A stretch of 40,137 nucleotides of DNA from a virus: the IMG/VR virus record IMGVR_UViG_3300047469_000384, positions 1 to 40,137 of that record, one strand, 5' to 3'. Of the stretch, positions 6,667-24,933 are shown one piece after another. The notes under the pieces were generated by a model. The model had not been told where the DNA came from. It worked only from the letters and a program-made list of their open reading frames with translations, and ran no database searches. Both the position numbers and the translations under genes were made by a program. How positions within the stretch are numbered: position 1 is the stretch's first letter; each line of letters opens with the position of its first letter.

Positions 6667-6692
6667 TATTTGGACAGGCGGCTATCCAAATG
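6667..6692. promoter_or_regulatory. Late-operon palindrome copy 1 (Ogr-type site) between P and O
   Basis: ATTTGGA (6668-6674) and TCCAAAT (6685-6691) flank a 10-base centre that is the reverse complement of the centre in the other two copies. The core is TGG-N12-CCA, the geometry of the P2 Ogr/Delta site TGT-N12-ACA. The centre is 58.5 bases from the P start (leftward) and 104.5 from the O start (rightward). One site therefore seems to serve two divergent late promoters. Confidence 0.8.
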
Positions 6693-6783
6693 CAGGGACT
6701 TGAGACTGCCCGCCCGACGGCCCTTTTCTGGCCACCGACATCAGGGGCTCACTGCCCCGCAACCACGGGAACCGGAACCGACC

Positions 6784-7629
6784 ATGGCCAAGAGCAAATT
6801 TTTCCGCGTCTTTGTCGAAGGCTTCACCGCCAGCGATGGCCGCAAGATCGAGGCATCGTGGATCGACGACATCGTCTCCACCTTCAACGCCGCCACCTAC
6901 ACCCCGCGCATCAACATCGAGCATATCAAGGGCTACAGCCCGGAACCGCCGTTCAACGGCTATGGCGATGTCGTCGCGGTCAAGGCACAGACCGATGAAC
7001 TGGTGATCAACGGCCAGACTGAACGCCGCCGCGCGCTCTACCTGCAGGTTGACCCCAATGAGCAGTTGATCGCCATGCGCGCCAAGGGCCAGAAGCCCTT
7101 TCCCTCGGTGGAAATCTCGCCCGATTTCGCCGGCACCGGCAAGGTGGGGCTGGTGGGCCTCGCCCTTACCGACAATCCCGCCTCTCTGGGCACCGAAGCG
7201 TTCAACTTTTCGGCTTTCAAACCGATGTTCGACGCCCGAAAATCCGCGCCGAACAACCTCTTCTCGGAAGCCTTCGAAGCGGTGGACATCGTCATGGAGG
7301 ATGCGCCTGTGGACGGCACCGGCATCGCCGCCGCCATCGCATCCGGCTTCGCAAGCCTCGCGGCGAAATTCACCGGCAGCGGCGATGGCAAGAAGGAACA
7401 GCCGAGCGAACCGCCCAAGCCCGCCAACGACAACAGCTTCGACGTCGCCGCCTTCACCGCCGGCCTCGCGGAACAAGTCGCCGCCGCCGTGAAGCCGGCC
7501 AATGATGCAGTAACCAAGATCCAGGGCGATTTCGCCGCGCTGCTCGCCAAGCTGGAATCCACCGAGCAGACCGGATTTTCACGCGCGCCCGCGACCGGCG
7601 GTTCCAACGCGATCCAGACCAACTGCTGA
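6784..7629 (+). CDS. O: Capsid scaffolding protein / prohead protease (P2 gpO family)
   Basis: 281 residues, matching P2 gpO (284). gpO is both the internal scaffold and the serine protease that matures the capsid and then degrades itself. The N-terminal protease half shows KFFRVFVEG, WIDDI, a histidine in INIEHIKG (about residue 46), DELV and a serine in PFPSVEISPDF (about 110), consistent with the H-S-D triad. From residue 180 on the protein is alanine-rich and helical, as expected for a scaffold. The ATG at 6784 lies after a 90-base leader from the late palindrome. Confidence 0.94.
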   Translation: MAKSKFFRVFVEGFTASDGRKIEASWIDDIVSTFNAATYTPRINIEHIKGYSPEPPFNGYGDVVAVKAQTDELVINGQTERRRALYLQVDPNEQLIAMRAKGQKPFPSVEISPDFAGTGKVGLVGLALTDNPASLGTEAFNFSAFKPMFDARKSAPNNLFSEAFEAVDIVMEDAPVDGTGIAAAIASGFASLAAKFTGSGDGKKEQPSEPPKPANDNSFDVAAFTAGLAEQVAAAVKPANDAVTKIQGDFAALLAKLESTEQTGFSRAPATGGSNAIQTNC

Positions 7630-7671
7630 TCCTCGCCGCCGCCCGCCTCAACACCTTGGAGTAATCCCCAC

Positions 7672-8724
7672 ATGCGTCGTGAAACCCGTATCGCGTATAA
7701 CGCCTATCTGGCCCAGATTGCGCGCCTCAATGGCGTGGAACTGGCGACCGAAAGCTTTTCGGTCGCCCCGACCGTCCAGCAGACGTTGAGCGAACTCATC
7801 CAGCAGTCCAGCGCTTTCCTTCAGAAGATCGCGTTCGAAACCGTGCCCAATCAAGAAGGCCAGAAGGTCGGCGTGGGCGTAACCCGCCCGCTGGCTGGCC
7901 GGGTCAATACGCGCGGCGGCACGCGCCGAACGCCCACCGATCCGACCGACACCAGCGACGGCGGCAACTACCGGTGCGAACAGACCTTTTATGACCATGC
8001 ACTCAGTTGGGAACGGCTCGACGCATGGCGCCACAAGCCCAATTTCCAAACGCTGGTCCGTGACGTTATCGTGCAGCGTCAGGGGCTCGACCGCATCACC
8101 ATCGGCTTTCACGGCACGTCGGTCGCCGCCACCACCAATCTGGTCGCCAATCCGCGCCTTCAGGACGTCAACAAGGGCTGGTTGCACAAGATCCGCCAAT
8201 ATGCGCCGGAACGTGTGCTGGACGACGGCGCGCTGACGGCTGCGGGCAAGGCGATCTATGTTGCCGACACCGACGACGCCACCAAGCGCGACTATGTCAA
8301 TCTCGACGCGCTGGTGAAGGACGCCGCAGCCGGCCTGCTCGATGAATGGCATCAGGAAGCCGATGACCTCGTCGTGATGATCGGCCGGGATCTCGTCCAC
8401 GACAAGCAGATGCCGATCGTCAACAAGGCGGGCAACACCCCTACCGAACAGCTGGCGCGTGACATCATCCTGCGCGGCGCCAATCAGGTCGGCGGCTATT
8501 ATGCCGAGCGCGTCCCCGACTTCCCGACCGCGACCCTGCTCATCACCAGCTACAAAAATCTGGCGATCTATGAGCAGGAGGAATCGCGCCGCCGCTACGT
8601 CAAGGACGAACCGGAACTGACCCAGATCGCCAACTATGAAAGCGTCAACGAGGCTTTCGTGGTCGAGGATTACGGCAAATGCGCCCTGGTCGAAAACATC
8701 GTCATGGGGCCGAAGCCCGCCTGA
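7672..8724 (+). CDS. N: Major capsid protein (P2 gpN family)
   Basis: 350 residues, equal to P2 gpN (357) within a few residues, and with the same opening pattern (MRRETRIAYNAYLAQIARLN). Further family blocks are SVAPTVQQTLSELIQQSS, GVGVTRPLAGRVNTRGGT, LDRITIGFHGTSVAATT and VNKGWLHKIRQYAPERVL. It has the HK97-type fold and builds the icosahedral shell; gpO normally trims its N-terminus. A GGAG Shine-Dalgarno sits 12 bases before the start. It follows O by 42 bases in the head operon. Confidence 0.97.
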   Translation: MRRETRIAYNAYLAQIARLNGVELATESFSVAPTVQQTLSELIQQSSAFLQKIAFETVPNQEGQKVGVGVTRPLAGRVNTRGGTRRTPTDPTDTSDGGNYRCEQTFYDHALSWERLDAWRHKPNFQTLVRDVIVQRQGLDRITIGFHGTSVAATTNLVANPRLQDVNKGWLHKIRQYAPERVLDDGALTAAGKAIYVADTDDATKRDYVNLDALVKDAAAGLLDEWHQEADDLVVMIGRDLVHDKQMPIVNKAGNTPTEQLARDIILRGANQVGGYYAERVPDFPTATLLITSYKNLAIYEQEESRRRYVKDEPELTQIANYESVNEAFVVEDYGKCALVENIVMGPKPA

Positions 8725-8771
8725 TCGGCGCGGCCCTGAACGCAATCCGCTCCATCTGACAGGACACGCAT

Positions 8772-9599
8772 ATGAGCCTCGCTCGTCGCAATCGTGATCG
8801 CATCCTCGCTGCCCAGACCATCAGCGCAGCGGCTGCACCTGCTGGTGGAGCGGGCGCCGCCCCTGCTGCCGATAATCTCCAGGCAGCAGGGGCGGTCAAT
8901 CCTTCCCCCGCCAATCGCGCCGCGGCGCAGATCGGCCTGCGCCTGACGCATGATCTGCGCCGCCTGAAGGAAATCCGGTCCATCGACCTCAAGATTGCCG
9001 CCAAGCGCGAAATGCTGCCGGAATATCGCGATTGGGTGGCCGGCGTCGTCGGCGCGGATGCAGGTGTCGGCACCGGCCTTGCGGCTGATGTCGTGCCGAC
9101 CATCATGGTCTGGCATATCGACACCGGCGCCTATGCCGCCGCGCTCGACATCGCCGATTTCCTGCTGAGGCATAAGGTCGCGATGCCGTCGCGCTATCAA
9201 CGCGATGCCGCGACGATCGTGGTGGAAGAAATCGCCACCGCCGCGCTCAAAGCACAGGGCGCCGACGCGTCCTTCCCGCTCGAAATCCTCGATCACGTTT
9301 CCGACCTGACCGCCGCCTGCGACATCCATGACGAGGTACGCGCCAAGCTGCTCAAGGCGATCGGCATAGAGCAGCTGCGCGACGCTGAGGATCTTTCCGC
9401 AGATGATGCCTTCGCCGCCCTGACAGCGGCAGTCTCCACCCTGAACGAAGCCCAGCGTCTCAATGACCGGGTCGGCGTGAAGGACAGGATCAAGCGCGGC
9501 CTAAAGCTGATGGCAGCCATCACCGCTGCCCGCGAAAAGGCCATCGCCGAACAGAACAACGAACAGGGCGGCCTGGACCAGAACGGTTCCGGCGCCTGA
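8772..9599 (+). CDS. M: Terminase endonuclease subunit (P2 gpM family)
   Basis: 275 residues (P2 gpM 247; the extra length is an alanine/glycine-rich insert at 18-50). In the P2 family this subunit makes the cos cuts together with gpP. Family features are the N-terminal SLARRNRDRILA, the LRLTHDLRRLKEIRSIDLKIAAKREMLP helix, MVWHIDTGAYAAALDIADFLLRH, and a long helical C-terminus. It follows N by 47 bases and leads into an unusual small gene before L. Confidence 0.93.
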   Translation: MSLARRNRDRILAAQTISAAAAPAGGAGAAPAADNLQAAGAVNPSPANRAAAQIGLRLTHDLRRLKEIRSIDLKIAAKREMLPEYRDWVAGVVGADAGVGTGLAADVVPTIMVWHIDTGAYAAALDIADFLLRHKVAMPSRYQRDAATIVVEEIATAALKAQGADASFPLEILDHVSDLTAACDIHDEVRAKLLKAIGIEQLRDAEDLSADDAFAALTAAVSTLNEAQRLNDRVGVKDRIKRGLKLMAAITAAREKAIAEQNNEQGGLDQNGSGA

Positions 9600-9721
9600 C
9601 AGGCTCGCCCCCGGCGCTCAGGGGCGGATCGCGCGATGCGGGAGGCCTTCGGGCCGCAGGGCCGCACTCTGCCCCGATCCTCACCCCTGTAAGCCGGCGG
9701 GCCGGCCGGAATGGAGACGTT

Positions 9722-9946
9722 ATGACCATTGCCCTCGCCATCTGGCTCATCTTCAAATGCCTGTTCCTCACCCTGTCGGCGTTGATCTTCGCCGCCCTTG
9801 GCATCGGATGCGGCATCGGCGCCATGCTGGCGGTGGATGATGGTTCGCATCCCGCACTGGCGCCCTCTCTGCTGGGCATCAGTCTTTATTTTCTGTGCTG
9901 GGAAATCGCCTTCATCGCCCTGCTGGCGCGGATGATCATTGCATGA
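9722..9946 (+). CDS. Small two-helix membrane protein between M and L
   Basis: 74 residues with two hydrophobic segments (about 4-36 and 49-72) separated by a short charged loop VDDGSHP. The ATG follows GGAGACGTT, a good Shine-Dalgarno, and the stop overlaps the L start by four bases (ATGA), so it is coupled to the head operon. P2 has no gene at this spot. The fold would fit a holin, antiholin or superinfection-exclusion protein, but no motif decides. The 120-base gap before it is GC-rich and holds no other gene that I can support. Confidence 0.65.
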   Translation: MTIALAIWLIFKCLFLTLSALIFAALGIGCGIGAMLAVDDGSHPALAPSLLGISLYFLCWEIAFIALLARMIIA

Positions 9947-10425
9947 CCTTCGTCGCCCGCCCTCCCGCATCCGAAATCGATCAGCCACCGGGGCCGGAAG
10001 CCGACGTCATCAACGACAGCTTTTTCCCGGATATCAACCCGGCGGCTGTTCGCGAGGCCGCGAGGATCCCGACCAGCATCACGCCCGCCCGCCTGCGCGC
10101 CGCCATCCTTGGCGCGATCATGACGGTGGAGATCGACCTGCGTGCATTCGCCGCGGCGTCCATCGCCGCAGGCCATGCCACGCTCGCCGCCGTCCCCGCG
10201 CCGCAGCTGGATGGACAGAGCGTGCAGCTGCTCCGCTACGGCCGCGCCATCGCCCTTTACGCCAAGGCCGAATTGATCGAACGCCACCGGGATTTCGACA
10301 CCACGGCAGCCGGCGGCGGTCAGGTGGACGAACTCACCCCGTCCATCGGCGAACTGCGCCGCGATGCGCAACATGCCGTGCGCGACATGCTCGGTCGCAC
10401 CCGCACCGTGGTCGATCTCATCTGA
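9943..10425 (+). CDS. L: Head completion/stabilization protein (P2 gpL family)
   Basis: 160 residues (P2 gpL 169). It seals filled heads by joining the portal before the tail attaches. The family pattern is clear: INDSFFPDINPAAVREAARIPTSITPARLRAAILGAIMTVEIDL near residues 22-65, a central RYGRAIALYAKAELIERHRDFDTT, and ELRRDAQHAVRDMLGR near the end. The start at 9943 overlaps the upstream stop by four bases; the stop shares one base with the X start. Confidence 0.94.
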   Translation: MTFVARPPASEIDQPPGPEADVINDSFFPDINPAAVREAARIPTSITPARLRAAILGAIMTVEIDLRAFAAASIAAGHATLAAVPAPQLDGQSVQLLRYGRAIALYAKAELIERHRDFDTTAAGGGQVDELTPSIGELRRDAQHAVRDMLGRTRTVVDLI

Positions 10426-10649
10426 TGCCGGCCGAACAGCGCCTTGTGGCCCTACAGGGGGACAAGCTGGACCTGCTGCTCTGGCGCGATGCCGGGCTTG
10501 GCCCCGCCGAAATCGCCCGTGTGTGCGACGCCAATCCCGGCCTTGCCGCCCTTGGCCCTGTCCTACCGCGCGGCACCGTGGTCATCGTGCCCGCCACCAC
10601 CGATGCCGGCGCCGCCCGCGCGCTCCCCCTCATTCAGCTTTGGGACTGA
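10425..10649 (+). CDS. X: Tail protein X (P2 gpX family, LysM-like)
   Basis: 74 residues, like P2 gpX (67). It is a small essential tail protein with a LysM-like fold, thought to belong to the baseplate hub region. Visible pattern: LVALQGDKLDLLLWRDAG, AEIARVCDANPGLAALGPVLPRGTVVIVP, ending in IQLWD, as in the family. The ATG at 10425 shares its A with the L stop codon. Confidence 0.92.
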   Translation: MPAEQRLVALQGDKLDLLLWRDAGLGPAEIARVCDANPGLAALGPVLPRGTVVIVPATTDAGAARALPLIQLWD

Positions 10650-10652
10650 TCC

Positions 10653-10985
10653 ATGGACCTGCAAAACTCCCTCGAATCGGCGGCAGACCTGATCCGCTCG
10701 CTCACCCCCTCGCTGATCGGCTCCGCCGTCGCACAGGCATGGAAGCCCTCGCTGCCCTTCCGCCAGCGCTTCCTGCAATGGGTGGTGGGTTCCACCGTCA
10801 GTTTCTACGCCACCAACGCCATCACGGCGCTGACGGGCTGGAACGGCTTTGTCGCACAATCGATCGCCTTCGGCATCGCCCTGATCGCCGTGGACGCCAC
10901 CCCGCGCATCGCCAAGGCCGCGATCGACACGCTCAGCAGCGTGCCGGGCCGCCTCGCTGACCGCTTTCTGCCGAAGAAGGACTGA
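10653..10985 (+). CDS. Putative holin
   Basis: 110 residues beginning three bases after X and directly before the endolysin, the classic holin position. Two hydrophobic segments (about 44-62, WVVGSTVSFYATNAITAL, and 66-84, GFVAQSIAFGIALIAVDA) are followed by a basic C-terminal tail ending in KKD. Holins form the inner-membrane holes that release the endolysin. The assignment rests on topology and context, since holins share little sequence. It does not resemble P2 gpY. Confidence 0.75.
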   Translation: MDLQNSLESAADLIRSLTPSLIGSAVAQAWKPSLPFRQRFLQWVVGSTVSFYATNAITALTGWNGFVAQSIAFGIALIAVDATPRIAKAAIDTLSSVPGRLADRFLPKKD

Positions 10986-10988
10986 CCC

Positions 10989-11441
10989 ATGCAGCTGTCG
11001 CCCAACTTTAGCCTGGCCGAATTTACCGCGTCCGCAACCGCCGTGGCCCAGCGGATCGACAACACCCCCAGCGCCGTCCAGATCGCGGCGATGAAGCTGC
11101 TCTGCGCCAAGGTGCTGGAGCCGCTTCGTGCCCATTTCGGCAAGCCGGTGCATGTCACGTCGGGTTTCCGTTCACCAAAGCTTTGCCTCGCGATCGGATC
11201 GGCAGTCACCAGCCAGCACGCCTTTGGCGAAGCCGCCGATTTCGAGATCCCCGGCATCGACAATGTGACGGTCGCCACCTTCATCCGCGAACGCATGGCG
11301 TTCGACCAGTTGATCTTGGAAAATTACACGCGCGGTCAGCCAAACAGCGGCTGGATCCACGTCAGCTATCGTGATGGCCGGCTGCGCAAGGATGTGCTGA
11401 CCTATTCGCGTCGCGCCTATTTCAAAGGGCTGCTGGGATGA
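10989..11441 (+). CDS. Endolysin, zinc D-Ala-D-Ala peptidase (M15_3 family)
   Basis: 150 residues. The zinc ligands of the M15 fold are visible: H77 in TSQHAFGEAAD, D84 in the same block and H124 in WIHVS. The conserved arginine lies in SGFRSP (58-63). The enzyme cuts peptide crosslinks in peptidoglycan, whereas P2 gpK is a glycosidase-type lysozyme, so the lysis enzyme has been replaced here. No signal peptide or SAR helix is seen, so it depends on the holin upstream. The stop overlaps the Rz start by four bases. Confidence 0.93.
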   Translation: MQLSPNFSLAEFTASATAVAQRIDNTPSAVQIAAMKLLCAKVLEPLRAHFGKPVHVTSGFRSPKLCLAIGSAVTSQHAFGEAADFEIPGIDNVTVATFIRERMAFDQLILENYTRGQPNSGWIHVSYRDGRLRKDVLTYSRRAYFKGLLG

Positions 11442-11833
11442 TCGGGAAATCGCATCTCGCTATGGCCGCCGCACTGGCCGCCTGCACGGCCGGCATCGGT
11501 GGCTTCTTCTATGGCACCAGCGTTGGCAGTGCGCAGGAACAGGCTGCGCAGAAGCGAGCGGACGATGCTCGGGATGCCGCCGCCAAGAAGCTGCAGGGCC
11601 AGATCGACGCCGCGACCGAGCGCGCACAGGCAGTGGAATATGCCCGCCAGGGCGTTGTCAGGGAAATTTACAATGAAACGCAGAAGGTCATCGAAAAGCC
11701 GGTCTATCGCAATCTGTGCGTTGATGCTGACGGCGTCGGCCTGCTCGACCGCGCCGCGTCCACGGCCAACAGCGAAGATCTCTGGCGCATATCTGGCGAC
11801 ACCCGCCCCATTGCCGAAGGTCCAGCGGAATGA
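11438..11833 (+). CDS. Rz: Rz-like inner-membrane spanin subunit
   Basis: 131 residues: an N-terminal signal-anchor (about 7-27, AMAAALAACTAGIGGFFYG), then a charged alanine-rich coiled-coil-like helix (30-90), then CVDADGVGLLDRA, the usual Rz C-terminal pattern. i-Spanins span the periplasm and pair with an outer-membrane lipoprotein to fuse membranes in the last step of lysis. It overlaps the endolysin stop by four bases. The partner Rz1 begins inside it in another frame at 11673. Confidence 0.85.
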   Translation: MIGKSHLAMAAALAACTAGIGGFFYGTSVGSAQEQAAQKRADDARDAAAKKLQGQIDAATERAQAVEYARQGVVREIYNETQKVIEKPVYRNLCVDADGVGLLDRAASTANSEDLWRISGDTRPIAEGPAE

Positions 11834-11963
11834 GGCGGGAGAGATGACCGGGGCGCAATGCCTCGGAAGTCTCACCAACATTTATGACGTCGCGGGCCAG
11901 ATCCGTGCTGCCCTGATCGAATTGCAGGCGCAGGCCCGCATGGCGAACGCACAGGCGGATTGA
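11673..11963 (+). CDS. Rz1: Rz1-like outer-membrane spanin lipoprotein, overlapping Rz out of frame
   Basis: 96 residues, translated in the +1 frame relative to Rz and overlapping it for 161 bases. A basic start (MKRRRSSKSRS) is followed by hydrophobic IAICALMLTASAC with a lipobox-like ASAC (C near residue 23), then a proline-rich part (STAPRPRPTA, LATPAPLPK), the hallmark of Rz1. The last 40 residues continue beyond Rz and may interact with it. An AGGG precedes the ATG. The next gene, R, starts three bases after its stop. The overlap architecture plus lipobox make the call fairly safe. Confidence 0.8.
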   Translation: MKRRRSSKSRSIAICALMLTASACSTAPRPRPTAKISGAYLATPAPLPKVQRNEAGEMTGAQCLGSLTNIYDVAGQIRAALIELQAQARMANAQAD

Positions 11964-11965
11964 CG

Positions 11966-12484
11966 ATGCGCAAGGCCGACAGTCTGCGGCAGTGGCTCAC
12001 CGCCTTCCTGCCTGATCTAAAAACCCATCCCGACCGGCTTCAGATCTATGTCGAGGCCGGCCAGATCAACGCGCGGCAATCGCGCACCCTGTCCTTCGCC
12101 TATGCCTATACGCTCAAGGTCGGCATCTGGGATTTCGCGGGCGATGCCGACACGATCATGGTGCCGGTCCTGGCATGGATCGAGAAGGAACAGCCCCAGC
12201 TGCTGCGCCGCACCGATGCCCAGCCCTTCACCTTCGAAGCGGAACTGCTCGACAGCGAGGCGTCAGATATTCTGATCTCCATCGACCTCACCGAAAATGT
12301 GCTGGTGATGCCGCGCGCGGATGGCAGCGGCTATGATCTCGACCATCCCGCCGAACCAGATTTTTCGGACAGTTTCGACGGTGAACAGCCCACCTTCCTG
12401 CAAGGCTTCGCCGCGACCGAAAATGTTTTGGAATCGTCAGATCCCAATGCGGTGCTGACCCCGGCCATTCCGCCCAATGCCTGA
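11966..12484 (+). CDS. R: Tail completion protein (P2 gpR family)
   Basis: 172 residues (P2 gpR 155). Segments typical of the family are KADSLRQWLTAFLPDLKTHPDRLQIYVEAGQI near the N-terminus and IMVPVLAWIEKEQPQLL in the middle. gpR is needed to finish the tail and join it to the head. An upstream TTG at 11960 is in frame, but ATG 11966 gives the better family start. The C-terminal 35 residues are acidic and variable. Confidence 0.9.
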   Translation: MRKADSLRQWLTAFLPDLKTHPDRLQIYVEAGQINARQSRTLSFAYAYTLKVGIWDFAGDADTIMVPVLAWIEKEQPQLLRRTDAQPFTFEAELLDSEASDILISIDLTENVLVMPRADGSGYDLDHPAEPDFSDSFDGEQPTFLQGFAATENVLESSDPNAVLTPAIPPNA

Positions 12485-12493
12485 TCCCGCCAC

Positions 12494-13165
12494 ATGACCG
12501 AAGATCTGGCCGAAATCGAACGGATCGCCGGGGCACTGCTCCGCAGCCTCTCCTCAGGCCAGCGCCGCACCCTCATGCGCCGTATGGCCCGCACCTTGGG
12601 CCAGAGCCAGCGCGAGCGCATCGCCGCCCAGCGCCAGCCTGACGGCGCGAAATTCGAAGCCCGCAAGGAAAAAACCCCGCCGGTGTCGGGCCGTGGCGCA
12701 ACCTGTTTCCTCTACCCGGCCAGCGGTGGCGGCGAACCGCGTAAGGTCATCATGAAAAGCTTTGCCTGGGGCAATGACCGCATGATGACCGGCTTCGATA
12801 TCGAGGCCGGCGCCATCCGCTCTTTCGCCTTCGACAAGGTGGTGAAGTGGCTCCCGGTGCCGGTGGAATATCGCAATGCCGGCGGCAGCAGCCTGCGCCG
12901 CCGGGGCGGCCTGCGTCGCCGCGCCATGTTCCGCCGTCTCGCCAGCGCGCGCTTCCTGCGCACCGGCGCCGACGATCAGGGCTTTTGGGTCGGCTTTTCC
13001 GGCAAGGTGTCGCAGATCGCGGGCGTCCACCAATATGGTCTGCGCGACAAGCCGTCGTTGCGGGCGGAGGCGGTGCCCTATCCCAAGCGTGCATTGCTCG
13101 GCGCGACAGCAAGAGACCGCGAGCAACTGCTCGATCTGCTTTACACCCACATTTCAGATGCCTAG
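12494..13165 (+). CDS. S: Tail completion protein / virion morphogenesis (P2 gpS family) with internal insertion
   Basis: 223 residues, much longer than P2 gpS (150). The N-terminal block (1-55, RRTLMRRMARTLGQSQRERIAAQRQPDGAKFEARK) and the C-terminal block (from about 138, LRRRAMFRRLASARFL to GVHQYGLRDKPS and LLGATARDREQLLDLLY) are standard gpS. Between them lies an insert of about 70 residues including SGRGATCFLYPASGGG and WGNDRMMTGFDIEAGAIRSF. A second, diverged copy of the last 35 codons follows the acyltransferase at 14392-14511. Confidence 0.88.
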   Translation: MTEDLAEIERIAGALLRSLSSGQRRTLMRRMARTLGQSQRERIAAQRQPDGAKFEARKEKTPPVSGRGATCFLYPASGGGEPRKVIMKSFAWGNDRMMTGFDIEAGAIRSFAFDKVVKWLPVPVEYRNAGGSSLRRRGGLRRRAMFRRLASARFLRTGADDQGFWVGFSGKVSQIAGVHQYGLRDKPSLRAEAVPYPKRALLGATARDREQLLDLLYTHISDA

Positions 13166-13243
13166 CCAATCGGCTGCTCCGGCGGCAATATGGCATCCAA
13201 ATAGAACAAATCGCTCCATTGCTGCCAGATTTCCACGAATGAT

Positions 13244-13272
13244 TTGGTGAAGCATCGATTTTGGTGCATTAT
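13244..13272 (+). promoter_or_regulatory. Candidate promoter of the acyltransferase moron
   Basis: TTGGTG (13244-13249), 17-base spacer, CATTAT (13267-13272), a plausible sigma-70 promoter inside the 137-base AT-richer gap after S. A host-type promoter would let the gene be expressed from the silent prophage. Based on spacing and hexamers only. Confidence 0.4.
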
Positions 13273-13302
13273 TGCACTGCACAATTGCTAGGGGATGAAA
13301 TT

Positions 13303-14352: not shown

Positions 14353-14391
14353 ATCAGCGATTTCACACTGCTCGGCGGATTGAGACATTTG

Positions 14392-14511
14392 GGGTTCCCC
14401 CTGCGTGTGCAGGCCGAGCCCTATCCGAAACGCGAACTGCTAGGCGCGTCGGAGGCCGACCGCGAGGCGCTGCTGGATTTGCTATACAGCCAGATCACCG
14501 AAGCCGCCTAG
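14392..14511 (+). pseudogene. Remnant: second copy of the 3' end of gene S
   Basis: From 14401 this frame encodes LRVQAEPYPKRELLGASE and on to a TAG at 14509, aligning without gaps to the last 35 residues of the gpS encoded at 12494-13165 (about 23 of 35 identical). No start codon or N-terminal part is present. The two copies differ too much to be a fresh duplication, so the fragment probably came with the acyltransferase from a related phage. The stop codon shares its last base with the first base of the IS. Confidence 0.8.
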
Positions 14512-14523
14512 GGTGCGGACTCA

Positions 14524-15278: not shown

Positions 15279-15351
15279 CTCACCGCCTCCTCGCCGAAGC
15301 ACTGAATCATAATCTGATCACCAAAGGAATCCGGTTATTGGGTCCGGACCC

Positions 15352-15456
15352 TAGAGCATTTTCCAGTCAGATGGGATCATCTGACGACTCGGAAAATACG
15401 GAAAACAAAAGACAAATAGAGCATGGTCCGATTCAATCTGATCGGATCATGCTCTA
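15352..15456. repeat. MITE-like palindromic repeat element
   Basis: About 105 bp bounded by TAGAGCAT and ATGCTCTA. Inside are a perfect hairpin GTCAGATG-GGAT-CATCTGAC (15366-15385), flanking ATTTTCC / GGAAAAT arms, and a second stem TAGAGCATG (15417-15425) / CATGCTCTA (15448-15456). I recall similar intergenic repeats being frequent in sphingomonad genomes. It contains no gene and directly abuts the IS. Confidence 0.65.
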
Positions 15457-15459
15457 GGA

Positions 15460-16104: not shown

Positions 16105-16117
16105 TTTGCCATTGCTG

Positions 16118-16143
16118 CATTTGGATAGCCGCCTGTCCAAATG
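16118..16143. promoter_or_regulatory. Late-operon palindrome copy 2 (Ogr-type site) upstream of J
   Basis: CATTTGGA-N10-TCCAAATG with perfect 8-bp arms; the centre TAGCCGCCTG is identical to copy 3. The flank GCAGG is shared with the other two copies. The centre is 57.5 bases before the J start codon. Its core TGG-N12-CCA has the spacing of the P2 Ogr site. It lies 14 bases from the toxin-antitoxin operators, so the two systems share this control region. Confidence 0.8.
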
Positions 16144-16187
16144 CAGGGGCATAGCGCACCCCCATGGCATGCCGCGACATGGCGGCC

Positions 16188-17081
16188 ATGGCCGAAACCA
16201 CCTTCACCGCCGTTGATCTGTCGCGCCTTCCCGCGCCTGACATCATCGAGCCTCTGGATTATGAGACGCTGCTTTCCACCGCCACCGCGCGGCTGCAGCA
16301 ACTCGTACCCACGTTCGAAAACCGGGACAGCGACCCGGCGACGAAGCTGCTGCAGACCTTCGCCTATCTCGCGCAGCTGGTGCGCCAGCGCGTCAATGAC
16401 GGCGCGCGCGCCGTCATGCCTGCCTATGCCACGGGCGCGGATCTCGACAATATCGCCGCACGCCTCCGCGTCACGCGACAGATCATCACCCCCGCCGATG
16501 ATCTTCTGGGCATCCCGGCGGTGCTGGAAAGCGATGCCGATTTGCGCAATCGGTTGGTGCTGGCACCGGAAGGCTATTCCGTCGCCGGGCCAGAAGGCGC
16601 CTATATTTTCCACGCGCTCTCCGCTGATCCTGACGTGCTGGACGCCAGCGCCACCAGTCCGGCACCGGGGCAGGTTCTGGTCTGCATCCTCTCACGCACC
16701 GGCTCGGGCGAAGCGCCGCTCGATCTGATCTCCACCGTTGAAAATTACCTGTCCAGCGAGACGCGACGCCCGATGACGGACCTCGTCACGGTCCAGTCTG
16801 CCGCGATCGTGGAATATATCGTCGATGCGACGATCAAGACGTTCAGCGGGCCCGACAGCGGCCTTGTGCTGGCCACCGCCCGTGCAAGGCTGGATGATTA
16901 TATCGCGTCTTGCCATCGCCTTGGGCGCGACGTGGCCCGATCGGGTATCCTTGCTGCCCTGCATGCCGGCGGCGTTCAGAATGTCACCCTGACCTCGCCA
17001 CCGGCGGATATCCTCGTCACGCGCGAACAGGCGTCGTGGTGCACGGGCATCAGCATCAATTTCGCGGGCACGGACGAATGA
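16188..17081 (+). CDS. J: Baseplate assembly protein (P2 gpJ family)
   Basis: 297 residues (P2 gpJ 302). The opening FTAVDLSRLPAPDIIEPLDYETLL matches the family start, which decides for ATG 16188 over two upstream in-frame ATGs. Other family blocks: SDPATKLLQTFAYLAQLVRQRVND, GADLDNIAARLRVTR and YSVAGPEGAYIFHALSADPDVLDA. gpJ forms the baseplate wedge with gpI and gpW. No Shine-Dalgarno is visible. The stop overlaps the I start by four bases. Confidence 0.95.
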   Translation: MAETTFTAVDLSRLPAPDIIEPLDYETLLSTATARLQQLVPTFENRDSDPATKLLQTFAYLAQLVRQRVNDGARAVMPAYATGADLDNIAARLRVTRQIITPADDLLGIPAVLESDADLRNRLVLAPEGYSVAGPEGAYIFHALSADPDVLDASATSPAPGQVLVCILSRTGSGEAPLDLISTVENYLSSETRRPMTDLVTVQSAAIVEYIVDATIKTFSGPDSGLVLATARARLDDYIASCHRLGRDVARSGILAALHAGGVQNVTLTSPPADILVTREQASWCTGISINFAGTDE

Positions 17082-17656: not shown

Positions 17657-17669
17657 TCTGGGTAACAGC

Positions 17670-20258
17670 ATGGAACTGAAAAATTTCTTCGCGCAGGACG
17701 CCAACGGCAACGTCATTCCGGCCGCGACCGCATATCTTTATCTTGCCGACACCGTTCCGCCGACGCTGGCCACGGGGCTGCAGAACGCCGCTGGCGCCGC
17801 GCTGCCGAACCCGTTCACAGCCACGGCGCAGGGGCAACTGCAGGTAGCGGCGCCCGATGGGGACTATGACTTGCGCGTGACCGGCGCCGGCCGCGATTTC
17901 ACCATGCGCGTCCGCTTCATTGACGCCGACCCGCTGCTTGATCTGGTGGAAACGCTCAAAGAAGAAACGATCATTGTCGAGCGCTTCACCGGCGCGGACG
18001 ATACCGCAAAATGGCGGGCCGCTATCAATGCGGCATCGGCGCGCGGCGGCGGCACCGTCAAGGGCACGGCCATGTCCTACACCCTGCGGAATCTTCTGGT
18101 AACGACTGACAATATCCATCTGGACTTCAACGGTGCGCACCTCACCGCAAACCCGGCCAATCCGGCCGCACCGGACCATAGCGGCGCACCGATGATTTAT
18201 GCCCATGGGTCGGCCGGTGCAGGCAGGACATTTGCTGCCGTGGCAGCGCAGGCAAAGACCATCGATGTCGCGGGTTTCGGTGCAGATTTCGCGGTGGGTG
18301 ACGCAATCCTTTTGCGTGATGACCGCTTTTTGCCGTCGTGGAATTTCGGGCAACCCGGTGCTTCTGTCGGCCCCGGCATTTCCTATCGTGCGGAAATCAA
18401 CAAGGTCGTCGGCAAGGACGGCGATGTGCTGACGTTGGAACTGCCCACGATGTTCGATTACGACACCGGGCAGACCGTCCGCAAACTGACGATGCTGAAA
18501 AACTTCAAGGTGATGAATATCGCCGGCCTTACCGAGCCTGATCCCGGCGGCCCATATACCGGCGATTTCGGAACCATGGCGAACACGCCGTTCATCATCG
18601 GCGTGGAATATGCCGATCACCCGGAAGTCATCGACGTGTCTGCAACCAGCTGGCAGCTGCAGCTTGTGAATTTCAAGTTCACCCGCGACGGCAGGGCTGT
18701 GCGCGTCAATGGCGAGAAGCCCATTCGCCCGGCGACCGGCGGCCATGGCTATATCAACCGCGCGGATCGCAGCCTTGGTTGCTACTTCACTGAATGCATC
18801 GGCCATGGCGTTCGCCATGTCGTCGATTGCGTCATGTCGCGCGACACCGTCAGCACGAAGAACAAGGGCTATGACAGCGTCGCTTCATCGTTCGCGGCGC
18901 ACGGTCATTTCTCTCGCGGCTTTACCTCCATCGACGATACCGATTTCAACGGCAATGCGGGATGGGCGATCGGCAATGGCTCCTTTGCCGCCGACCATGA
19001 AAGCAAGATCATCAACCCCACCGCGATTGGATCACCCATCGCAATTCTGCTCGCGTGCCTCTCCGAAGACATCGAGATCATCAACCCGCAGTTCCGAAAC
19101 GTCCGCAGGGGAATCTATGCCGTGGCGGGCGTGAAGCGCTGCACGGTCTCCGGCGGTCGCATGACGCCGATGTCCACAACCCCCGCGCTGATCTTGTTCC
19201 GATCCAAGCAGAATGATGGAGACGCCTTCGCTGTCCCCTGCGAGGATATCCGGGTCTTGGGCGGGATCTATGAAACCCGTGGCGGGCCGGTGGGACAGGC
19301 GCCGATCGTGATCGGCGCAAACGGTCTTATCGAGGTTTCGGACAACTACTTCCGGTTCGATGATCCGTGCTTTGCCGGCGTGTACATCACCTCGCAGGAT
19401 GGCGTGGCACTTGCGCCCACGGAATTCATCTTCGAGCGGAATCGCGGCTGGGGCACGGCGGCAGGGCGCTTTTTCTCGCAGACGCTGGTGCCGTCCAACC
19501 AGTTCGTGTTCCGCAACAACGTGAATTACGGCGCCGCCCGCAATAATTACATCGCACCGCTCGAATCGTTTCGCTTCACGATGACCGGCAACAACAACGG
19601 CCAGGGTGGCTGGGTGTTCAGCACCCCCATTCAGGACGCCATCACGGCCGGGGGCACCGTCGCCTTCAACTATCCCGACATCTCGGGCGGCTGGTTCAAT
19701 CGCCTGAAGCAGCTGATGGTCGACACGTTCAGCGCCAAGGGACTGAGCGCAGCCGTTCTCGCCGGCGCGAACGGTGACATCACCTTTGGATCTTACACGG
19801 ATCCAAGCCTGTCTCCCCAGTTCAACAGCTATAATCCGCGCTGGATCTTTCGGAAAAACAACGCTGCCGAAGGTGGCGGCAACGCAGGGTCGGATTTGCA
19901 GATCCTGCGCCGGGCCGATGACGGATCCGCGCTCGGCGTACCGATCTCGATCGCGCGCGCCACCGGCGACATTGCCATGGTGGACGGGCGGCTTTCCCAG
20001 ACCGGCACCTATCTGAGGCCGTTCGTCATCGCCGGCATGCGGATCTGGCAAAATGCGAGCACGACGCAGCTGCGCTATCGCCATGGAAGTGATCCCACAT
20101 CCGATGGTGACGGCAATCCGCTCGTCAGGATGGTCGGCGCTCCTGCGTCGGCCGCCGCGCAGGGCACGCCCGGCGATCTGGCTTTGGTCAATGGTTATTT
20201 GCACGCCTGCATCGCCAGCGGAAACTGGCAGCGCGCCGCACTGACCGGCGGATATTGA
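17670..20258 (+). CDS. Tailspike with right-handed beta-helix (pectate-lyase-like), probable polysaccharide-binding or cleaving
   Basis: 862 residues. Residues 1-95 form a small beta-rich virion-attachment domain (NFFAQDANGNVIPAATAYLYLADTVPP, DGDYDLRVTGAGRDFTMRVRF). From about 105 (FTGADDTAKWRAAINAASARGGGTVKG) begins the pectate-lyase-3-type beta-helix, which runs to about 640 with repeated short strands (IEIINPQFRNVRRGIYAV, IEVSDNYFRF, FIFERNRGW). The C-terminal 200 residues carry fibre-tip motifs such as GTPGDLALVNGYLHACIASGNWQRA. Such spikes bind and often cut surface polysaccharide; the substrate cannot be predicted here. It replaces the spot where P2 has only H after I. Confidence 0.85.
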   Translation: MELKNFFAQDANGNVIPAATAYLYLADTVPPTLATGLQNAAGAALPNPFTATAQGQLQVAAPDGDYDLRVTGAGRDFTMRVRFIDADPLLDLVETLKEETIIVERFTGADDTAKWRAAINAASARGGGTVKGTAMSYTLRNLLVTTDNIHLDFNGAHLTANPANPAAPDHSGAPMIYAHGSAGAGRTFAAVAAQAKTIDVAGFGADFAVGDAILLRDDRFLPSWNFGQPGASVGPGISYRAEINKVVGKDGDVLTLELPTMFDYDTGQTVRKLTMLKNFKVMNIAGLTEPDPGGPYTGDFGTMANTPFIIGVEYADHPEVIDVSATSWQLQLVNFKFTRDGRAVRVNGEKPIRPATGGHGYINRADRSLGCYFTECIGHGVRHVVDCVMSRDTVSTKNKGYDSVASSFAAHGHFSRGFTSIDDTDFNGNAGWAIGNGSFAADHESKIINPTAIGSPIAILLACLSEDIEIINPQFRNVRRGIYAVAGVKRCTVSGGRMTPMSTTPALILFRSKQNDGDAFAVPCEDIRVLGGIYETRGGPVGQAPIVIGANGLIEVSDNYFRFDDPCFAGVYITSQDGVALAPTEFIFERNRGWGTAAGRFFSQTLVPSNQFVFRNNVNYGAARNNYIAPLESFRFTMTGNNNGQGGWVFSTPIQDAITAGGTVAFNYPDISGGWFNRLKQLMVDTFSAKGLSAAVLAGANGDITFGSYTDPSLSPQFNSYNPRWIFRKNNAAEGGGNAGSDLQILRRADDGSALGVPISIARATGDIAMVDGRLSQTGTYLRPFVIAGMRIWQNASTTQLRYRHGSDPTSDGDGNPLVRMVGAPASAAAQGTPGDLALVNGYLHACIASGNWQRAALTGGY

Positions 20259-20269
20259 AGGAGGGAAAG

Positions 20270-20530
20270 ATGGTTCACGGTTTTATGAAGATGGCGCCGG
20301 ACTTCAGCGCCAAATATTTCATCGCACGGTATGAGGACGGTCGTCTGGCCGCCACCGGCTGGGTCAACCCTTTGGCTGCTTTCAACGGCACCGCGACCGA
20401 ATGGCATATGGTCGAGGACGTGGCAGGCTTCGATGATGAAGGTTTCGCCGACATCGGGGATTTCGAAGATCCGGTTATCGGCAGGATCATCATAAGGGAG
20501 GCGTCGGCCCCCGAGCAGCCGGCGGAGTAG
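20270..20530 (+). CDS. Small tailspike-associated protein, function unknown
   Basis: 86 residues with a strong AAGGAGGG Shine-Dalgarno five bases before the ATG, 11 bases after the tailspike stop. The sequence (YFIARYEDGRLAATGWVNPLAAFNG, EWHMVEDVAGFDDEGFADIGDFEDPVIG) is acidic, with no membrane segment. Position and size suggest a spike chaperone or accessory tail protein. I do not recognise a named family. Confidence 0.7.
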   Translation: MVHGFMKMAPDFSAKYFIARYEDGRLAATGWVNPLAAFNGTATEWHMVEDVAGFDDEGFADIGDFEDPVIGRIIIREASAPEQPAE

Positions 20531-20534
20531 CATC

Positions 20535-20633
20535 ATGGCACGCCCGCGCCAGGACGTGGGCATGGCCCCATCGGCCGACATATTCCGCCTGCCAGCGCGA
20601 CCGAACCCGGTTCGCATCCCCCAAAAGGCCTGA
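20535..20633 (+). CDS. Possible 32-residue small ORF between tailspike accessory gene and H
   Basis: MARPRQDVGMAPSADIFRLP followed by a short proline/arginine-rich tail, filling most of the 109-base gap between two tail genes. The start is close to the upstream stop, but there is no clear Shine-Dalgarno. It may be noncoding spacer. Confidence 0.3.
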   Translation: MARPRQDVGMAPSADIFRLPARPNPVRIPQKA

Positions 20634-20639
20634 AGAAAA

Positions 20640-22370
20640 ATGCCTGACTTCAAAACAATTCACACGCGTTCCGGGCTTATAGCGATGGCTCAGGCTGAGG
20701 CCATGGGCACCCCGGTCAACCTGACCCACATGGCGGTGGGTGATGGCAGTGGTCTCCCTGTCACGCCGGATGAAGGGCAGACCAATCTGGCACGGGAAGT
20801 CTTCCGCGACGCCATCAACCGCGTCTATCAGTCGCCCACAGAGCCAAACCGCTTCACCGCGGAACTGGTGGTCCCAGCTATCATCGGCGGCTTTACCATG
20901 CGCGAGGTCGGCGTGTTCGACGCCGATGGCAGCCTGTTCGCGGTCGGCAATCTGCCCGCCACCTATAAGCCGATGGCCAGCGAAGGCGCCTATGCCGACA
21001 CCGTGGTCCGCCTCGAATTCATGGTCACGAACGCGGATGTCGTTACGCTGACGCTCGACCCGAATGTGGCCGTGGCCAGTCAGGCATGGGTGTTCAACAA
21101 CACGCATGGCATCCCGCCCGGCGGCACCACCGGGCAAGCGCTGCTGAAACAATCCAATGGCGATTTCGACGCCGACTGGCAGGGCCTTGGCGATCTGAAC
21201 GTGGTTGTCGCGGTGATCGAGGAAACGCAGGAACTCGCTGACGGTCAAACCATCATCGATCTGGCGTTGACCACGACAAACAGTCTGGCGGTCTATGTCG
21301 AAGGCAGGCGCCTGCGACCGGACGAATGGACGCCGGACCCGATGATCCCGACCCGGCTTGCTCTGGATCATTCATATCCCGACGGAACGATGATCGTCGC
21401 CACCCAGAACGAGCCGAATGGCAGCGTCGGCGCACCCCTGATGCAGGCGCTGAACCTCTATGACGTTCCCGACAAAGCCGCCGCGCGGAGCAATCTTGAT
21501 GTCTTCAGCCGGGCAGAGGCGCGGCAGATGTCGCCTGCAGGGCAGGTCGCCTATTTCGCGCGCAGCGCCGCCCCGACAGGCTGGCTGAAGGCGAACGGCG
21601 CCGCCGTGTCACGCGCGGCCTATTCCGATCTGTTTGCCGCGATCGGCACCAGCTTCGGCGGGGGCGACGGCTTCAACACGTTCAACCTGCCTGACCTGCG
21701 CGGCGAATTCATTCGCGGGTGGGATGATGCGCGCGGCGTGGATATCGGGCGATCCTTCGCCAGCTGGCAGGCGAGCCAGAATATCTCGCATGTGCATACT
21801 GGCAGCAGCGAAGCCGCCGGCGATCACAGCCATAGCGGCAACACGGGCAACGGTGGCGGTCATATCCACGCCGCCGCCACGGCCGGTGCCGGTGGGCATA
21901 GCCATGATGCAGGCACCGGCGGGGCTGGCGGCCATGCGCACGCCGCCTCTGCGTCGGACGTCGGCAATCATCAGCACGCCCTGGCATCAGGTCCGCTGGC
22001 CGGCGGCAATGCCACGCTGACGATCGGCGGCACGCTGGCGGTCGAGAAGACGTCAGAAGGTGACAGCGGCTATCGCCTCATCAACAATGGCATCAATTCC
22101 GCCGCCCCGACGCTCGGCCTGTCCAGCGCCGCTGGCGCGCACAGCCACGCAATCACGGTCAACGGCGTCGGGGATCACACGCACGGGGTCTATATCAACG
22201 GCGTCGCCGACCATGCCCATGGCGTCACCGTCGCTGCCGGAGGCGATCACTTGCACAGCTTCACCACCGGCACGGCGGGCCAACATGCCCACAGCTTTAC
22301 GACCGCAGCATCGGGTGGCGGCGAAGCGCGCCCACGCAACGTCGCGCTGCTCGCCTGCATCAAATATTAA
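20640..22370 (+). CDS. H: Tail fibre protein with collar domain and HxH metal-site repeats (P2 gpH-like)
   Basis: 576 residues. The N-terminal ~150 residues (FKTIHTRSGLIAMAQAEAMGTPVNLTHMAVGDG, FTMREVGVFDADG) are the gpH/DUF3751 tail-collar-fibre domain that fixes the fibre to the baseplate. About 305-360 is a phage tail collar domain (GWLKANGAAVSRAAYSDLFAAIGT, FNLPDLRGEFIRGWDD). The last 190 residues hold eleven H-x-H motifs in a glycine/alanine-rich setting, as in metal-centred trimeric fibre shafts such as T4 gp12. The end RPRNVALLACIKY is typical of fibre tips. Receptor binding is the expected role. Confidence 0.92.
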   Translation: MPDFKTIHTRSGLIAMAQAEAMGTPVNLTHMAVGDGSGLPVTPDEGQTNLAREVFRDAINRVYQSPTEPNRFTAELVVPAIIGGFTMREVGVFDADGSLFAVGNLPATYKPMASEGAYADTVVRLEFMVTNADVVTLTLDPNVAVASQAWVFNNTHGIPPGGTTGQALLKQSNGDFDADWQGLGDLNVVVAVIEETQELADGQTIIDLALTTTNSLAVYVEGRRLRPDEWTPDPMIPTRLALDHSYPDGTMIVATQNEPNGSVGAPLMQALNLYDVPDKAAARSNLDVFSRAEARQMSPAGQVAYFARSAAPTGWLKANGAAVSRAAYSDLFAAIGTSFGGGDGFNTFNLPDLRGEFIRGWDDARGVDIGRSFASWQASQNISHVHTGSSEAAGDHSHSGNTGNGGGHIHAAATAGAGGHSHDAGTGGAGGHAHAASASDVGNHQHALASGPLAGGNATLTIGGTLAVEKTSEGDSGYRLINNGINSAAPTLGLSSAAGAHSHAITVNGVGDHTHGVYINGVADHAHGVTVAAGGDHLHSFTTGTAGQHAHSFTTAASGGGEARPRNVALLACIKY

Positions 22371-22379
22371 GGAGGCAAC

Positions 22380-22697
22380 ATGTCCACGAAGACGGCCTAT
22401 CAGTTCAACAATGCCGGCCATTTCGCCGGAGAAACGGACGCTGACGAAAGTCCGCTGGAGCCGGGCGTGTTCCTGCTCCCTGCCCGCTGCACATTCACAC
22501 CGCCTCCCGCCAATGTGCCGGATGACAAATGGCCACGCTGGAACGGCGCCAGCTGGCTTTTGGAAAAGCGCACGGCTTCGACGCTCAGGGATGATGCGCT
22601 GTCGAAATTGCAGCAATTCCTCTCGACCAATCCCGATGTGGCAACCTTCCTCGCTTCCTTCGGAGCGCTCTCACACAATGATGTGCGACTTGGTTAA
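22380..22697 (+). CDS. Tail fibre assembly / gpG-like chaperone
   Basis: 105 residues, with AAGGAGGCAAC before the ATG and directly following the fibre gene. The middle segment LPARCTFTPPPANVPDDKWPRWNGASWLL is the compact proline/tryptophan signature seen in tail fibre assembly proteins and fibre tips. The C-terminus is a short helix. Its place after H equals that of P2 gene G, a fibre-folding chaperone. Sequence similarity to gpG itself is too weak to name it safely. Confidence 0.65.
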   Translation: MSTKTAYQFNNAGHFAGETDADESPLEPGVFLLPARCTFTPPPANVPDDKWPRWNGASWLLEKRTASTLRDDALSKLQQFLSTNPDVATFLASFGALSHNDVRLG

Positions 22698-22850
22698 AGT
22701 CAGGATCGATTGCCAGATATAAAACAAATAAAAATGTAAGTTGAAAAAGAGACAGAATTATAATTTTGATTTTTAACAAAAACTTCTGTCCTACACATTC
22801 TCCGCAATTGCATATGAAAAACTCCATGATGGTTGGAGATGGTGGTTCAT

Positions 22851-24827
22851 ATGTCGACATATTACATCAGTGCTGTTGGTGACGATTCCAACACAGGGCG
22901 CGATCCTAGCAGCCCTTGGCAAACCTTGGCCAAAGTCGCTGCCACGACACTTTGGCCTGGCGACGTCATTCTTTTTCGTGCTGGCGATGCATTCTACGGT
23001 ATCCTCCAATGCAACTATGGCGCAGCGATTCCTCGAACACAGGATGTTCGGCCAATCATGTGCAGTTCCTATGGAGCGGGCGCGAAGCCAAAAATCTCTT
23101 ACTATAAGCGTTTGGTGACTGGAAATTGGACGAATGAGGGCGGAGGTGTTTGGTCATTCCCTATCAACAACAACGGCGGAGTTGTTGTTACAGGAAATTA
23201 CACGATCGTCGGCGCCAACGGAGCAAATATTGGATTTCTGAGAGTCGATAGTCAGATTTTCGGCTTCAAGCGGAAAACACTTGCTGAACTTACTCAACCC
23301 CTGCAACCGACCGCACAGACTGAATGGCAGGTTCCAAGGTCGCCAGCGCAATGGGACTTCTTCAGCAACGAGGTAGACAAGCTGTATGTTTACTCACCAG
23401 CTGGCGATCCTTCACTTCTCGCAACGGAAATTCTGGCCGCACCTAACGGCAATCTTGTTGCCTCGAACCTAAACGGAATGTCCATAAGCGGCCTTCATTT
23501 TGAAGGCAGCGGTGGCCATTGTGTTGGTTCGATCAGCGATTGCTTGTTCGAGAATAATGTTGTGGCAGAAATCGGCGGGAGCCGCTTGCTGGCTGACGGC
23601 ACGCGTTACGGCAATGGATTTCAGAATTACGCTAACGGCGGCACGCAAGCTCGATGCCGGATTCGAAACAACGAGTTTCGGGACATTTACGATGTCGCAT
23701 TTACATGTCAGGGGCCGAATAATACGCTCGCGACGCATGGCTTCGAAGATATCGATTTCAGCCAGAATGTGATCCTGCGATGCTCACAGGCATATGAATT
23801 TTGGGCGACATCCGGCAATCAGGTGGCAGACCCGGCCGCAGACCCCAATGCCGGATTCCGCCGCATTCGCGTTGTCGGCAATCAGGATATCGATACGGGT
23901 TTCTGTTGGGGATATGACACGCGGACGGACCAGCTTGCAGGCGGCGTTAGCAAGGGCGTGCCACTGCTCTGCTATTCCATGCTCGTGCCTAAAATCGATA
24001 TCATCATCGACAGGAACGAGAGCTATAATCCCCGATCGCTTGCCTTTTTTCTTACCCCACCTGCTCCTGGATATAGGTGGACAAATCACAGGGTTTTCGC
24101 TCGGCCGGGTACCGGGCTTGATCCCAGAAATGTTCCCGGTTCGGTCGTAGACAATTTTGACGCCTATATTTTGGCGACGGGGCGCGGCCAAGGAAGCGTA
24201 TTTTTCCCGCTTGATGAAAACCCAAGCGAACTGGACGTACAATCCAACGTTCAGCAAATTTTGTCGTTTATCAACTCTGTGGCGTTAAAAACCGAACTGC
24301 TCGAAGACGCGCTACGTGCAGTTGGAGGAACTGCCTCTCAGGCGCTGGAAAGCGCTAAAACCGCTCTTCTCCCTATATTTAGCCAGGCGAATCTTCCCGC
24401 GAGTGCCTATGGGTCCGGCCAACTAGCATATGTCACGAATATCGGCGGCTCAGGCGGCTTGGTGATGTCGCTTTTTAATAAGTGGCGACGCCTTAGTACG
24501 GGAGGTGTCAATTCGTTCAGCGGTGCGGGAAATCATACCATCTCATACCCGCTTTCTGCCTGCATGGTGAAATATGTTGGTGATCAGACGACGTCTAACG
24601 CCAACACCATCCTATCATCGCCTGGACAAATTAGCGGTGCCGAGATTGAATTGGTGCGGACAGCCACCGGCACCGGCCGGCGGATCGTTCAAGCTACAAG
24701 CGCTGCAGGCACGTCTGTCAATCTTGTGTCGCTAGGACAGAATTCCTGGGCGAAGTTCAGGGGAGACGACGGGACGCCATATATTTGGCACGTGGTTGCT
24801 TGGGGCGGCGATGTGATCATTCTTTGA
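22851..24827 (+). CDS. Second right-handed beta-helix protein, moron-like, likely alternate tail spike or surface enzyme
   Basis: 658 residues from ATG 22851, chosen because MSTYYISAVGDDSNTGRDP is the usual start of this beta-helix type; ATG 22839 is possible. Residues 1-420 show repeated short strands with asparagines (GMSISGLHFEGSGGHC, DCLFENNVVAEIGGS, RCRIRNNEFRDIYDVAFTC). The last 150 residues carry a tail-fibre-like module (LPASAYGSGQLAYVTNIGG, FNKWRRLSTG). The gene and its 150-base upstream gap are clearly AT-richer than the phage, and a strong terminator follows, so it is an autonomous insertion where P2 carries its Z/fun locus. A polysaccharide target is likely but unproven. Confidence 0.75.
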   Translation: MSTYYISAVGDDSNTGRDPSSPWQTLAKVAATTLWPGDVILFRAGDAFYGILQCNYGAAIPRTQDVRPIMCSSYGAGAKPKISYYKRLVTGNWTNEGGGVWSFPINNNGGVVVTGNYTIVGANGANIGFLRVDSQIFGFKRKTLAELTQPLQPTAQTEWQVPRSPAQWDFFSNEVDKLYVYSPAGDPSLLATEILAAPNGNLVASNLNGMSISGLHFEGSGGHCVGSISDCLFENNVVAEIGGSRLLADGTRYGNGFQNYANGGTQARCRIRNNEFRDIYDVAFTCQGPNNTLATHGFEDIDFSQNVILRCSQAYEFWATSGNQVADPAADPNAGFRRIRVVGNQDIDTGFCWGYDTRTDQLAGGVSKGVPLLCYSMLVPKIDIIIDRNESYNPRSLAFFLTPPAPGYRWTNHRVFARPGTGLDPRNVPGSVVDNFDAYILATGRGQGSVFFPLDENPSELDVQSNVQQILSFINSVALKTELLEDALRAVGGTASQALESAKTALLPIFSQANLPASAYGSGQLAYVTNIGGSGGLVMSLFNKWRRLSTGGVNSFSGAGNHTISYPLSACMVKYVGDQTTSNANTILSSPGQISGAEIELVRTATGTGRRIVQATSAAGTSVNLVSLGQNSWAKFRGDDGTPYIWHVVAWGGDVIIL

Positions 24828-24838
24828 AATTGTAAGGT

Positions 24839-24860
24839 AAAGGCCCCGAAAGGGGCCTTT
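24839..24860 (+). terminator. Rho-independent terminator after the beta-helix moron
   Basis: Perfect AAAGGCCCC / GGGGCCTTT stem with a GAAA tetraloop, 11 bases after the stop codon, followed by TACTG. It insulates the next late operon (V onward) from the moron and explains why V has its own promoter element. Confidence 0.85.
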
Positions 24861-24907
24861 ACTGTCTAGGTATCGGGTTTTCTCTGACATCAGAACCCAC
24901 CCCCCGG

Positions 24908-24933
24908 CATTTGGATAGCCGCCTGTCCAAATG
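24908..24933. promoter_or_regulatory. Late-operon palindrome copy 3 (Ogr-type site) upstream of V
   Basis: CATTTGGA-N10-TCCAAATG, identical over all 26 bases to copy 2 and continuing with GCAGG. The centre is 55.5 bases before the V start. A 12-base element CATGGTCCGCCC (24964-24975) directly precedes the V ATG and recurs two bases before the P ATG (6635-6624, minus), where a -10 box would lie. Confidence 0.8.

Follow-up and report, generated by a model that had tools for sequence, protein, structure and literature searches.

We found three copies of a palindrome in the window, the whole stretch of 40,137 bp of an IMG/VR virus record that was analysed, and these copies stand at fixed positions before the late operons, are conserved at the same places in related phages and covary in spelling with the Ogr protein of the phage. 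It is very probable that these palindromes serve a P2-like phage as late operators and are read by its own Ogr, which would recruit RNA polymerase to four late promoters, with P, J and V leaderless and with a spelling that changed along with that of the activator. In this mechanism, Ogr would bind two CATTTGG half-sites 12 bp apart, in a site whose centre lies some 55 bp before the predicted transcription start, and may bring host RNA polymerase to the divergent promoters of P and O, which would share one site, and to those of J and V. The P, J and V transcripts would start on the start codon or no more than a few bases from it, and the O transcript would have a leader. Within this host group, the spellings of activator and operators would have changed in concert from phage to phage. 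The features concerned are listed in Table 1.

Table 1. Putative late operators, predicted promoter elements and genes of the window
Feature	Position	Strand	Remarks
Late operator 1 (P/O)	6667..6692	.	putative; in the gap separating divergent P and O; one arm reads TATTTGG, a single mismatch to the core CATTTGG-N12-CCAAATG
Late operator 2	16118..16143	.	putative; perfect palindrome upstream of J
Late operator 3	24908..24933	.	putative; perfect palindrome upstream of V
P, terminase large subunit	4765..6621	-	PHROG; ATG 58.5 nt from dyad centre; probably leaderless
O, scaffold/protease	6784..7629	+	PHROG; predicted transcript leader of about 48 nt
J, baseplate	16188..17081	+	PHROG; likely ATG 57.5 nt from dyad centre; presumably leaderless
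V, baseplate spike/assembly	24976..25548	+	PHROG; likely ATG 55.5 nt from dyad centre; presumably leaderless
Putative -10 CATGGT, P promoter	6630..6635	-	47 bp from dyad centre; conserved in P alignments; function predicted
Putative -35 TTGAGA, O promoter	6700..6705	+	CtTgAG conserved in 30 phages; function predicted
Putative -10 CTTTTC, O promoter	6723..6728	+	46 bp from dyad centre; CctTTt conserved; function predicted
Putative -10 CATGGC, J promoter	16178..16183	+	gacatGg conserved in 32 phages; function predicted
Putative -10 CATGGT, V promoter	24964..24969	+	gccatgGtc conserved in 38 phages; function predicted
ogr, Ogr/Delta zinc-finger activator	37250..37558	+	PF04606, 51.6 bits; phrog_603

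The sequence-only reading had described the palindrome in three copies in the gaps before P/O, J and V, and our analysis confirmed both the copies and the identities of the genes, which are backed by PHROG families. Copies 2 and 3 are the perfect CATTTGGA-N10-TCCAAATG, while copy 1 has a single mismatch (TATTTGGA...) in the outermost base on the P side. Three matches with at most three mismatches were found in the window against 0.20 expected by chance, and none of 100 dinucleotide shuffles reached three. Copy 1 had also been said to carry the same centre inverted, and indeed its minus strand shares 28 identical nucleotides with copy 2 (CTGCATTTGGATAGCCGCCTGTCCAAAT). An oriented centre was considered as a functional feature and rejected, as the orientation at P differs among relatives; because it is not conserved, the orientation is probably not functional. 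The 3-N12-3 core of the earlier description fits the geometry of the sites of P2 and Smp131, but the core that is really conserved is longer, namely CATTTGG-N12-CCAAATG. This geometry by itself is weak evidence for an Ogr-type site because every palindrome with an even gap holds some 3-N12-3 pattern, and the case for Ogr operators is carried by fixed position and co-variation.

The ogr product passes the Pfam Ogr_Delta family well above its cut-off of 26.3 bits, which agreed with the zinc-finger gene proposed from the sequence. Its cysteines are arranged as C-x2-C-x22-C-x5-C and depart from the CX2CX22CX4C pattern of P2 (PMC3931495). The Pfam model tolerates this difference of one residue, and C-x5-C represents a variant of the motif and not the loss of a zinc ligand. 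The C-x5-C had been linked to the new specificity; it is present in the window Ogr, but it is not the source of the TGG arms, since the whole sphingomonad Ogr clade has it in all operator classes, including the TGT-N13 and CATATGG-N13 phages. The second knuckle reads RNPDxC in N12 phages and, within this clade, R[ND]V/I..C or LDLRDC in N13 phages. When solved structures were searched by sequence, no member of the Ogr/Delta family turned up. The predicted structure of Ogr was poor (mean pLDDT 65.9) and Foldseek with this model gave no significant match (best E 0.73, a topoisomerase I complex), so the residue positions of Ogr could not be placed on DNA. Ogr_Delta matches above the cut-off were found in 28 of 299 Sphingomonadaceae genomes versus only 3 of 385 genomes sampled from the whole class; the Sphingobium centre genome itself is one of these three.

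The gene order of the window is that of a P2-like phage, with P and Q divergent from O and N and with J, V, sheath, tube, tape measure and D present; there are Pfam matches for the sheath, tube and tape measure proteins of the tail and for GPD. It is reported that the sites of P2 and of Stenotrophomonas phage Smp131 have the form TGT-N12-ACA and that their Ogr proteins have CX2CX22CX4C (PMC3931495). The P2 record (NC_001895) places the centres of the activator sites 55.5 bp (V), 55 bp (O), 56 bp (P) and about 57–59 bp (F) from the transcription start, and the V transcript starts at the first base of the V start codon, as computed from the annotated coordinates. As in the P2 Ogr/P4 Delta system, the window has a PF04606 zinc finger, a single site for the divergent P and O, and site centres about 55 bp upstream, measured in the window from the start codon; a V transcript beginning at its start codon is likewise predicted. 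Unlike in P2, the arms are TGG (CATTTGG) in place of TGT, the dyads are perfect over 7 bp or longer where those of P2 are imperfect, the Ogr has C-x5-C instead of C-x4-C, and the J and V operons stand where P2 has V and F. Smp131 resembles the window more in its arrangement, with four promoters (PP', PO', PJ' and PV') and sites at P/O, J and V, but differs in its TGT-N12-ACA arms and in its Ogr cysteines. The Ralstonia phages phiRSY1 and phiRSA1 have TGTTGT-N13-ACAACA sites (PMC5694545) and share with the window four late promoter regions and long dyads about 50–90 bp before start codons, whereas their arms are TGT with N13 and a TGG class was not reported. Dyads with a 12-bp gap (13 bp in phiRSY1) and a centre about 55 bp upstream thus precede each late operon, with TGG...CCA arms in the window and other arms in relatives, and we predict that the window sites are P2-like late operators that are not of the TGT type. 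The system belongs to a known kind and varies in its arm bases; its added interest lies in the matched variant set and the residue correlation. Our literature search found nothing on Ogr in sphingomonads, and related searches led only to TGT-type sites.

The search of related sphingomonad phages that the sequence-only reading had called for gave a clear answer: the palindromes are kept at the same three places, upstream of P/O, J and V, in dozens of Sphingomonadaceae P2-like phages and prophages. Among viral contigs, 18 stretches carry the exact 22-mer core and 12 carry Ogr relatives. Alignment of the regions upstream of P, J and V in the viral records of relatives showed that the core CATTTGG-N12-CCAAATG is conserved and that the middle varies in sequence and orientation. 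A search with the family alignment found Ogr relatives on genome contigs of Sphingobium, Novosphingobium, Sphingomonas and Croceibacterium. Sphingobium abikonense NBRC 16140 is a lysogen with a close relative, L066/L149. Among 13 genomes carrying Ogr, the pattern CATTTGG-N12-CCAAAT occurred on the prophage contigs in two or three copies or not at all, and one genome (G037) had one additional match away from them. Frequent occurrence outside prophages would have spoken against the operators, but the pattern was absent from 289 of 299 family genomes, and nine of the ten that have it hold it at one or two places. The only genome with three copies (G027) carries a window-type ogr; in whole genomes, the pattern comes in threes only alongside this gene.

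The distance from the dyad centre to the start codon is nearly constant in the sphingomonad phages: 56.5–59 bp for P (30/30), 55.5–58.5 bp for J (32/32) and 55.5–58 bp for V (38/38). No Shine-Dalgarno-like tetramer was found before the starts of P (30), J (32) and V (38) in the relatives, and one was found before the internal gene N in 30 of 30 phages and before O in 6 of 30. Conserved blocks lie near +46 (CATGGT or CATGGC), and toward O there is CtTgAG followed by CctTTt; these blocks would suit the -10 and -35 positions of a promoter that needs an activator. The data suggest that the P, J and V mRNAs are probably leaderless and that the O mRNA probably has a leader. Zymomonas belongs to the same order as the sphingomonads. 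Leaderless transcripts have been documented in Zymomonas, in 119 of 2,675 TSS-gene pairs (PMC7566282).

Phages that carry Ogr and lack the TGG pattern were found to have other dyads at the same places. These fall into the classes CATTTCG-N12 (G033, G339 and G338), CATCGGG or CAGCGGG-N12 (G036 and G355), CATTGGG-N12 (G047), CATATGG-N13 (G348, G349 and G351–G353) and CATTTGT-N13 (G038, G343–G345, G347 and G354), several operator classes being represented by one to three related phages each. The more distant C-x4-C phages mostly have TTGT-N13-ACAA and also TCGT-N13, TCGG-N13 and variants with N12 and N14; no clear palindrome was found in the more distant Ogr phages G191 and G608. In phages with two or three readable sites, the arms were identical, the exceptions being some degenerate half-sites (G047 V, G355 J and G360 J). 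The sites of G320, G040, G155a, G020 and G023 were read by eye or pattern and those of P2 were taken from the annotation, and the survey left KS14 and other Burkholderia phages aside. The specificity proposed for the window differs from that of the TGT arms as claimed, but it is not unique to this phage, as TGG-N12 is the commonest class of the sphingomonad clade (23 of 40 tabulated phages).

The spelling of the operators follows Ogr and not the other late genes. Among the 30 phages for which all genes were available, the six operator classes required 5 changes on the Ogr tree, the fewest possible, versus 7 on the J tree, 9 on that of O and 8 on that of P; shuffled labels gave a mean of 12.4 changes on the Ogr tree and a minimum of 10. 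Removing the candidate specificity columns from the Ogr alignment left the count at 5. Operator distance correlated with Ogr distance in the Mantel test (r 0.68, p 0.0002) and did so equally in the partial test given J, O and P (r 0.68, p 0.0005), and J, O and P showed no correlation with operator distance in these 30 phages once Ogr was controlled. This agreed with the co-evolved activator and operator pair that had been suggested earlier, since the spelling tracks Ogr and none of the controls P, O, J, the gene abutting ogr and the GapR-like gene. Linkage alone is a poor explanation of the covariation because the operators sit 12–30 kb from ogr in the window. Some co-inheritance of modules or blocks does exist, because the GPD tail gene near ogr, which correlates with operator class (r about 0.54), keeps a correlation of 0.25–0.29 given Ogr (p about 0.004).

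Another DNA-binding protein of the phage might read the sites, the likeliest being the product of the gene abutting ogr (36674–37249) or of the GapR-like gene (38159–38401). Like ogr, both are conserved, being present in 38/38 and 34/38 flanks, respectively. We consider this improbable: operator class changed 9 times on the tree of the abutting gene, 10 times on that of GapR and 6 times on that of the GPD tail protein versus 4 times, the minimum, on that of Ogr, and the partial correlation given Ogr was 0.08 (p 0.20) for the abutting gene and negative for GapR. Position and geometry also fit the Ogr sites of P2 and phiRSY1.

Still less probable is a role of the palindromes as RNA or DNA structure, such as a hairpin, a terminator or a recombination site. 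The repeats are highly identical and could form stems of 8–11 bp, but their arms vary among phages in step with Ogr, the spacing to the start codons is fixed, the centre differs in sequence and orientation among relatives, and the site would sit upstream of the transcription start. Host factors act on many phage promoters, and a host regulator might read the sites, with the resemblance to Ogr sites being coincidental. We regard this as just as improbable as a structural role, as the pattern is almost missing from the 299 host-family genomes and a single host factor would not explain the two spellings in host genome G155. This genome has two P2-like prophages (L131/L106 and L133/L146) with different Ogr proteins and with operators of TTGT-N13 versus TCGT-N13, which suggests insulation between co-resident prophages.

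Within the reading of the sites as Ogr operators, one residue is a candidate for base recognition. The residue seven positions after the second cysteine (Cys2+7) is Arg23 in the window Ogr; all 50 phages with Arg or Lys at this position lack C at the middle two bases of the inner four of the arm, and all 5 with Glu or Gln have C there (Fisher p 3e-7, ignoring relatedness, with about three Ogr lineages by eye). This rule was framed post hoc on the same data, and further phages were fetched afterwards. Two later phages with His at this position, G273 (TCCT-N13 at three sites) and G232 (TCGT-N13 at two sites), agreed with the rule, and so did G510 from the class-wide draw, which combines Arg with TTGT arms 11 bp apart; no clear dyad was seen in G191 (Cys) or G608 (Arg). 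Ala at position 17 is confined to the CGGG phages; at position 18 the N12 classes have Gly, TGT13 has Glu or Lys and CATATGG-N13 has Ala or Gln, these residue-operator correlations coming from few lineages. The Cys2+7 residue is thus a candidate predictor of C in the site core. We lean, with some reserve, toward the wider view that the Ogr of sphingomonad P2-like phages radiated into many specificities of arms and of 12- or 13-bp spacing with a readable code, in which Cys2+7 (Arg/Lys versus Glu, His or Gln) would decide the central C, residues 17–18 and 42–44 would set the other arm bases and the spacing, and co-resident prophages would be insulated.

Matched natural activators and operators of varied spelling make the DNA recognition of the Ogr zinc-finger family directly testable, which matters because the sites that we found described in print are all TGT-armed and sequence searching turned up no solved structure of a relative. 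They would also provide activator-promoter pairs for Alphaproteobacteria that are already at hand and may not interfere with one another, and they hint at how prophages in one cell avoid activating each other's late genes.

Some other features of the window were observed near these genes. The stop codon of the open reading frame upstream of ogr (plus strand; PHROG 38866; in 38/38 relatives) directly abuts the ogr start codon, and translational coupling of the two is possible. The GapR-like DNA-binding protein downstream of ogr, also on the plus strand, matches PF10073 with 116.5 bits; GapR itself is mainly familiar as a nucleoid protein of the host. The 3' end of the D (GPD) gene is duplicated over 75 nt with 87% identity, at 31866–31940 and 33991–34065, and the two copies flank an open reading frame judged by eye to be transposase-like (32060–32545) and a Bro-N protein (32542–33870). 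The segment between them resembles a cargo insertion in which the end of the gene was duplicated.
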